From assembly GCA_005798335.1 (NCBI GenBank), contig SYJV01000533.1, forward strand, positions 1 to 64,000: a stretch of 64,000 nucleotides of DNA, given 5' to 3'. Numbering within the stretch: position 1 is the stretch's first letter; each line of letters starts with the position of its first letter. Below are positions 1 through 54,430 of the stretch, piece after piece. The notes beneath the pieces are model-generated. The model saw only the letters and a program-made list of their open reading frames with translations, was not told the DNA's origin and did not search any database. Position numbers and translations under genes: made by a program. The DNA is from Planctomycetaceae bacterium (GTDB taxonomy: Bacteria > Planctomycetota > Planctomycetia > Pirellulales > Pirellulaceae).

Positions 1-115
1 CAGGCGTATGTCAATCCAGGCTCTCACTCGCTTGCGCTTCGGGCTTGTACTGGTATATTCCCATCTGCCGCTCGCCTAAAAACCCGATGGGTTAGCGAGT
101 GTGGCCGATATCGGA
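1..115. repeat. Dispersed palindromic repeat (partial, at window edge): 'cactcgcttgcgcttcgggcttgta..ggtatattcccatctgccgctcgcc..gcgagtg'
   Basis: Shares 'CACTCGCTTGCGCTTCGGGCTTGT' and 'ATTCCCATCTGC(C/T)GCTCGCC' with sequence near 53.9-54.15 kb; related core at 9377-9446. Confidence 0.6.
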
Positions 116-185
116 ACGTGAGCCGATGCATTCACAAGGCTTGCCGGTTTCAAAACGTGAAACTTAATCGACGGAGATTCGTACC

Positions 186-24539: not shown

Positions 24540-24670
24540 CAATACCGTTCAACGAACGTGGGATAAGCTTCCAGCGCTTCCAGCTTGTCAACCTGTAGCG
24601 GAGTTTCGCCATTGCATGCACAAGATATTGACAAGCTGGAAGCTTATCCCACGTTCGTTGAACGGTATGG
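24540..24670. mobile_element. MITE-like palindromic element, copy 1 (131 bp, 9-bp internal insertion)
   Basis: CAATACCGTTCAACGAACGTGGGATAAGCTTCCAG...CTGGAAGCTTATCCCACGTTCGTTGAACGGTAT; same arms and core as copies at 48759 and 53969. Confidence 0.88.
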
Positions 24671-48758: not shown

Positions 48759-48880
48759 CAATACCGTTCAACGAACGTGGGATAAGCTTCCAGCTTGTCA
48801 ATATCTTGTGCAAGCAATGGCGAAACTCCGCTACAGGTTGACAAGCTGGAAGCTTATCCCACGTTCGTTGAACGGTATTG
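48759..48880. mobile_element. MITE-like palindromic element, copy 2 (122 bp, core inverted)
   Basis: Perfect 43-bp arms CAATACCGTTCAACGAACGTGGGATAAGCTTCCAGCTTGTCAA/TTGACAAGC...CGGTATTG; core is the exact reverse complement of copy 3. Confidence 0.92.
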
Positions 48881-53891: not shown

Positions 53892-53955
53892 CAAGCCCGA
53901 AGCACTAGCGAGTGTATGCCAGGATTGACGCACTCGCATTGCGCATCGGGCTTGT
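53892..53955. repeat. Dispersed palindromic repeat ACAAGCCCGAAGC...GCATCGGGCTTGT
   Basis: Inverted arms; shares the CGGGCTTGTA core with window start and the 9377 repeat; continues past the MITE as GGTAAATTCCCATCTGCTGCTCGCC. Confidence 0.7.
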
Positions 53956-53968
53956 ATTCGCTTAGGCC

Positions 53969-54090
53969 CAATACCGTTCAACGAACGTGGGATAAGCTTC
54001 CAGCTTGTCAACCTGTAGCGGAGTTTCGCCATTGCTTGCACAAGATATTGACAAGCTGGAAGCTTATCCCACGTTCGTTGAACGGTATTG
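53969..54090. mobile_element. MITE-like palindromic element, copy 3 (122 bp) with 10-bp target duplication CGCTTAGGCC
   Basis: Perfect 43-bp arms around a 36-nt core; identical CGCTTAGGCC at 53959-53968 and 54091-54100. Confidence 0.93.
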
Positions 54091-54430
54091 CGCTTAGGCC
54101 TTGGTAAATTCCCATCTGCTGCTCGCCCAAGTAGGCGAGTTAGTCCTCGCTATGCATACGATGAAGTGGCACTACAATTGTTCCCGACAAAGAGGATTGA
54201 AATTAATGCTGGCATGAGAATGTCGCTTTACAGGACAACGACTTTCACTAACAATGTCCTGCCGCAATGATCCGGGTTCACGGATCGGCTCTGGCAGTAC
54301 AGCGATCTTCGTAGGAGTGGCTTGCATGGAACATCGTCGCTCATTCGTTCCCCAATGCGCTTCGCCTCATCGTTCGCGTCATTTCTCGAGGTCGCTGTCG
54401 CCAGTCAACCACTACTAGATCGGTGCAAGG

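Follow-up and report, generated by a model that had tools for sequence, protein, structure and literature searches.

A recently active 122-bp MITE of the IS4 group with REP-like palindromes inside its arms in a Planctomycetaceae bacterium

The element at positions 53959-54100 of the window (the whole stretch of 64,000 nucleotides that was analysed) is a genuine IS4-group MITE that has been very active recently. In all probability an IS4-group DDE transposase acting in trans mobilised it; its IS4-type ends most likely first came to lie on either side of a REP doublet (REPIN) already resident in the genome, and this composite later multiplied. Observed directly were the ends, the copy number, the near-identity of the copies, their duplications and target preference, an empty paralogue, and matching IS4-group insertion sequences (ISs) in relatives. 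The transposase would bind the approximately 18-bp ends (CAATACCGTTCAAYGAA), excise the element and reinsert it at palindromic CGYTTARRCG-type sites, where a cut staggered by 10 bp would produce the 10-bp duplication.

The perfect 43-bp arms, 36-nt core and 10-bp duplication that a preliminary description had placed at 53959-54100 are exactly as it located them. The element is bounded by two copies of the 10-bp duplication CGCTTAGGCC on the + strand, at 53959..53968 (left) and 54091..54100 (right). The left arm (53969..54011) and the right arm (54048-54090), complementary over their full 43 bp, enclose the core (54012..54047, + strand), which resembles the spacer of a free REP doublet on contig C75 (L284). 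Each arm begins with a terminal inverted repeat: on the left an IS4-group type end, CAATACCGTTCAACGAAC (53969..53986, + strand), whose first 17 bp are those of the IS4-group IS ends of relatives bar one C/T, and on the right its reverse complement (54073..54090, - strand). Further in, each arm has a 23-bp GTGG-tagged REP-like palindrome, GTGGGATAAGCTTCCAGCTTGTC (53987..54009, + strand, and inverted at 54050..54072, - strand), found also at C14 and C75 and in relatives without the terminal repeats. It contains, at 53996-54004, the sequence GCTTCCAGC that serves in other copies as the insertion site of a Tn5-like element, MITE-B. The folding energy of the element as single-stranded DNA is −55.1 kcal/mol, compared with −12.8 ± 2.5 for shuffled sequences (z −16.9). 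The window copy lies in an intergenic region between predicted genes. An Rfam search gave only mir-576, which scored 47.6 bits where the cut-off is 99, and this below-threshold match was dismissed as a chance likeness of a long hairpin.

Bacterial MITEs are 70-300 bp long, with terminal inverted repeats and no coding capacity (PMC3733652). The non-coding 122-bp element with its perfect 43-bp arms falls within this description and resembles such MITEs also in its target duplications, high copy number and probable mobilisation in trans, whereas its long arm differs in being a composite of an IS4 end and a REP-like palindrome.

The window holds two further copies. One, at 48759..48880 (- strand), is a letter-identical 122-bp copy whose flanks, GGATTAGGCC and GGATTAGAAC, are alike at 8 of 10 positions. 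The other, at 24540..24670 (+ strand), is 131 bp long, carries GCTTCCAGC in tandem in its left arm and lacks an intact 10-bp duplication; its flanks (CCTCGTTTAACCC ... AGTTAAACGAGG) are inverted, not duplicated, possibly owing to insertion into a palindrome or to rearrangement.

Searching the host genome (8.46 Mb, 558 contigs) with the 122-mer, a check suggested by the preliminary description, revealed many further copies, at least 40 of them letter-identical, while none was found in the relatives searched. Likewise, a scan of a named genome collection for the exact arm gave no match. The 17-bp end, with up to two mismatches, matched the host genome 355 times and a reversed control 4 times; chance is therefore excluded, and the number of elements is thus approximately 175. 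From these, 60 distinct copies were examined as a sample, not as an exhaustive list. Their lengths were 122 bp (n = 53), 131 bp (n = 5), 118 bp (n = 1) and 126 bp (n = 1), and 35 of the 53 copies of 122 bp were identical to the consensus, the remainder differing by 1-6 changes. Listing the flanks, as had also been suggested, showed an exact 10-bp duplication in 42 of the 60 sampled copies and one with a one-base mismatch in 6 more. The insertion sites differ among copies, which lie at unrelated positions with fresh duplications. The target is itself a palindrome (~CGTTTAAACG), roughly CGYTTARRCG, and its logo is symmetric with a peak of TTA/TAA at the centre (TTA|TAA). The examined copies, mostly near-identical and freshly duplicated at their targets, yield an exact target-site model. 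Several contigs (L002, L003, L004, L007, L012 and L025) stop about 10-20 bp from a MITE copy flanked by CGTTTAACCC, and it seems that the MITE repeat together with its favourite target breaks the assembly.

The flanks of the window element belong to a dispersed repeat (CGGGCTTGTATTGGTAAATTCCCATCTGCCGCTCGCC) that occurs at window positions 38-120 and 53940-54130. It comes in two subtypes, distinguished by an additional CGCTTAGGCCTT in one of them, and hosts several MITE insertions. The preliminary description rightly assigned positions 38-70 to this repeat, but was mistaken in taking them for a paralogous empty site, as they read GGGCTTGTAC-TGGTATATTCCC without the 10-mer CGCTTAGGCC. The true paralogous empty sites are two loci of another repeat subtype than window 38-70 (L059 and L076), both reading GGGCTTGTATT-CGCTTAGGCC-TTGGTAAATTCCC, with the 10-mer present once and no insert. 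The view of a recently active non-autonomous element thus gained support from the many near-identical copies, their exact duplications at differing sites and a true empty paralogue. Since no intact transposase was found in the host assembly, this activity cannot be claimed to be current.

A search for ISs with matching terminal repeats, likewise proposed at the outset, identified IS4-group elements in relatives and none in the host assembly. The 17-bp end is present in 25 of the 242 family genomes searched, with 0 control matches, and is shared with an autonomous IS4-group IS in G174, G170, G243 and G128. The IS of G174 is 1471 bp long. It is bounded by perfect 18-bp ends (CAATACCGTTCAATGAAG) and flanked by a 10-bp duplication (CGTTTAACGA), and encodes a transposase of 459 aa, to which the relatives in G170, G243 and G128 are 66-76% identical. 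The G174 transposase matches both Nterm_IS4 (PF13006, 56.6 bits) and DDE_Tnp_1 (PF01609, 28.3 bits) as well as the NCBIfam model NF033592 (IS4 family; 152 bits, above the cut-off), placing the same-ended ISs in the IS4 group of the IS4 family (E. coli IS4 / InsG type). Target duplications in the IS4 group are 10-13 bp long. Those of the partner family measure 10 bp at L168, L170, L172 and L173, with one or two mismatches at L171, L174 and L175, and the same CGTTTAAC-like target is used. Remoter IS4-group relatives (37-43% identity) have ends of the CAATACCG or CAATACTG type and 10-bp duplications, some of them imperfect. In one relative, G170, the IS sits beside MITEs: this genome has both an IS with MITE-type ends, the flanks of which are unlike each other, and MITEs of 134-156 bp with exact duplications. 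In contrast to the ISs, the window element is non-coding and only 122 bp long, and the likeness between them is confined to the first ~17 bp. Only the outer ~18 bp of the 43-bp arm, not its full length, form the transposase end.

In the host assembly, no Nterm_IS4 protein was found, and the best match to the partner transposase was a fragment with 22% identity that had no recognisable ends. The host's five DDE_Tnp_1 genes were rejected as partners, none having CAATACC ends of its own. A 1699-bp element of G020 was likewise rejected as a second autonomous partner: it is a Tn5-like IS that sits within a MITE arm and has a 9-bp duplication (TCGTAACCT). Transposase fragments, mostly at contig ends, are present in G004, which belongs to the host's genus. 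Scanning the named genome collection for the transposase gave as sole match a known MAG contig of a Pirellulaceae bacterium, the contig of the G174 IS. As far as sequence comparison goes, the partner family is identified in the genomes of relatives, not in the host assembly. The earlier suggestion of a transposase acting in trans agrees well with ISs that share the ends, the duplication length and the target of the MITE. Because none was found in the host assembly, we only infer that such a transposase made the host copies, the enzyme having presumably been lost or lying in an assembly gap.

The inner part of the arm is a putative REP, to judge from its form: the GTRG tag, the palindrome, the inverted pairs and the dispersal. 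Related genomes without the IS4-type ends CAATACCGTTCAAYGAA, for example G011, G013, G027 and G030, also have the REP core motif in dispersed copies. GTRG-tagged inverted palindrome pairs, the hallmark of REPINs, also lie dispersed outside the MITE: inverted REP pairs without terminal ends occur in the host genome at L283 and L284, and free doublets of the REP class carried by the local MITEs, again without the ends, in G004 and G197 (L237, L238) and in G170 (L306:4591). The flanks of free REP copies bear no trace of IS4-type ends. In small samples of G126 and G003, no clear free doublets were found. Sister MITEs that share these ends, in G003, G004, G020/G197/G198, G126 and G170, have GTRG-tagged palindrome pairs of other kinds inside them, as though IS4-type ends had captured REPINs more than once.

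The L284 locus (G000 C75:17300-19600) is a REP cluster between pilin-like genes with a prepilin-type N-terminus. It includes a free doublet and a second doublet that has a degenerate IS4-type end on just one side, the latter a possible intermediate. Short tandem arrays of REP units are present at L033/L042 (G002 C106:8472-8573) and at L319:2213-2467 in G170, the latter with several tandem doublets and with a Y1 transposase gene on the same contig.

REPINs and GTAG-tagged REPs have been described (PMC3116915, PMC3733652), and GTAG/CGTC repeats have been reported in Planctomycetes. The inner part of the element resembles them in consisting of two inverted GTRG-tagged palindromes of ~20-25 bp that are also free in the host and in related genomes, but differs in that its REPs travel within IS4-type ends with 10-bp duplications and that a linked RAYT was not found. 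Could the element nevertheless be a pure REPIN spread by a RAYT, its outer 18 bp merely part of the repeat? The architecture of the inner arms, two inverted GTGG-tagged palindromes, and the 17 Y1_Tnp matches in the host genome would fit. However, none of these 17 loci adjoins or carries the REP of the MITE, the ends match IS4-group ISs, and the exact 10-bp duplications in most sampled copies are a DDE signature, so we regard this explanation as very unlikely. Target duplications are not known from IS200/IS605-type enzymes. In each of G170 and G197, the REP class is present at a distance of a few hundred bp from a single Y1 locus. Even less credible is a fixed structural or regulatory hairpin under selection. 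The fold is indeed very stable and the window copy intergenic, but the copies sit at unrelated sites with fresh duplications, an empty paralogue exists, the 122-bp form is absent from the other relatives searched and orthologous conservation was not seen.

An ordinary internal deletion of an IS4-group IS, a common origin of MITEs, deserves more weight, although we consider it unlikely. The REP-like palindromes would then be decayed pieces of the MITE instead of captured cargo, and the free REP copies could indeed be decayed MITEs: most REP matches in the host lie within the MITE, with 392 counted against ~350 expected from its arms. On the other hand, past the first ~17 bp the MITE is unlike the IS, the same REP class occurs in the four related genomes named above that lack the CAATACCGTTCAAYGAA ends, free doublets are without IS4-type ends, and same-ended MITEs hold unrelated REP classes in different genomes. 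Capture of a REP doublet by IS4-type ends is accordingly our preferred reading.

The usual view is that REP hairpins are spread by tyrosine transposases dedicated to them. Repeated capture of REP doublets by IS4-type ends, if real, would be a second, easily testable route for hairpin multiplication. We are evenly divided on the wider proposal that, among Pirellulaceae, resident REPINs of unrelated classes have time and again been enclosed by IS4-group ends. The resulting chimeric REPIN-MITEs would spread REP hairpins through DDE cut-and-paste and not through RAYTs, and would serve as landing pads for Tn5-like MITEs targeting the REP loop. A description of IS4-ended MITEs carrying REPs was not found in the literature, though this does not prove that none exists. 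What sets this IS4-group MITE apart is its chimeric REP make-up together with the Tn5-like element nested in it.

The nested element, MITE-B, is 196 bp long with ends CTT(G/T)TTATACCCCACATCTTT and makes a 9-bp duplication on insertion, its sites being mostly GCTTCCAGC in the REP loop, whether of a free REP or of the 122-bp MITE. A 1574-bp IS on contig C54 (L119 79-1652, G000), encoding a Tn5-like transposase with Tnp_DNA_bind and Dimer_Tnp_Tn5 domains, is the probable partner of MITE-B. On either side of this IS lies a partial MITE copy, the two having the 9-mer in opposite orientations; the duplication of the IS itself is therefore unconfirmed, and the arrangement possibly reflects recombination or misassembly. 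At the MITE-B site, always in the same arm, each of the five 131-bp copies of the MITE has a doubled GCTTCCAGC or a doubled one-base variant of it. We read the doubled 9-mer, including that at 24540-24670, as a footprint of MITE-B excision. In one copy (L077), both 9-mers carry the same base change (GCTCCCAGC), which favours a separate insertion and excision event there; the other 131-bp copies may stem from one common event, as all five footprints are in the same arm. The nested element and its footprints form a readable record of insertion and excision. Insertion sequences that target REPs are known, among them ISRm22 of the IS4 family (PMC1525189). MITE-B and its relatives are similar in inserting at one point of the REP palindrome, but MITE-B, 196 bp long and non-autonomous, sits inside a second MITE, and its footprints are 9 bp long.

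Two further ISs were noted: one at L117 684-2193, with CAGCCCTGTGAAGGTG at its ends and a duplication of 11 bp (GCGTCAATGGG), apparently interrupts a long reading frame, and another at L116 1175-2953 has ends CTACGCCGTGAACCTT and a 9-bp duplication (GGTGGCACT).
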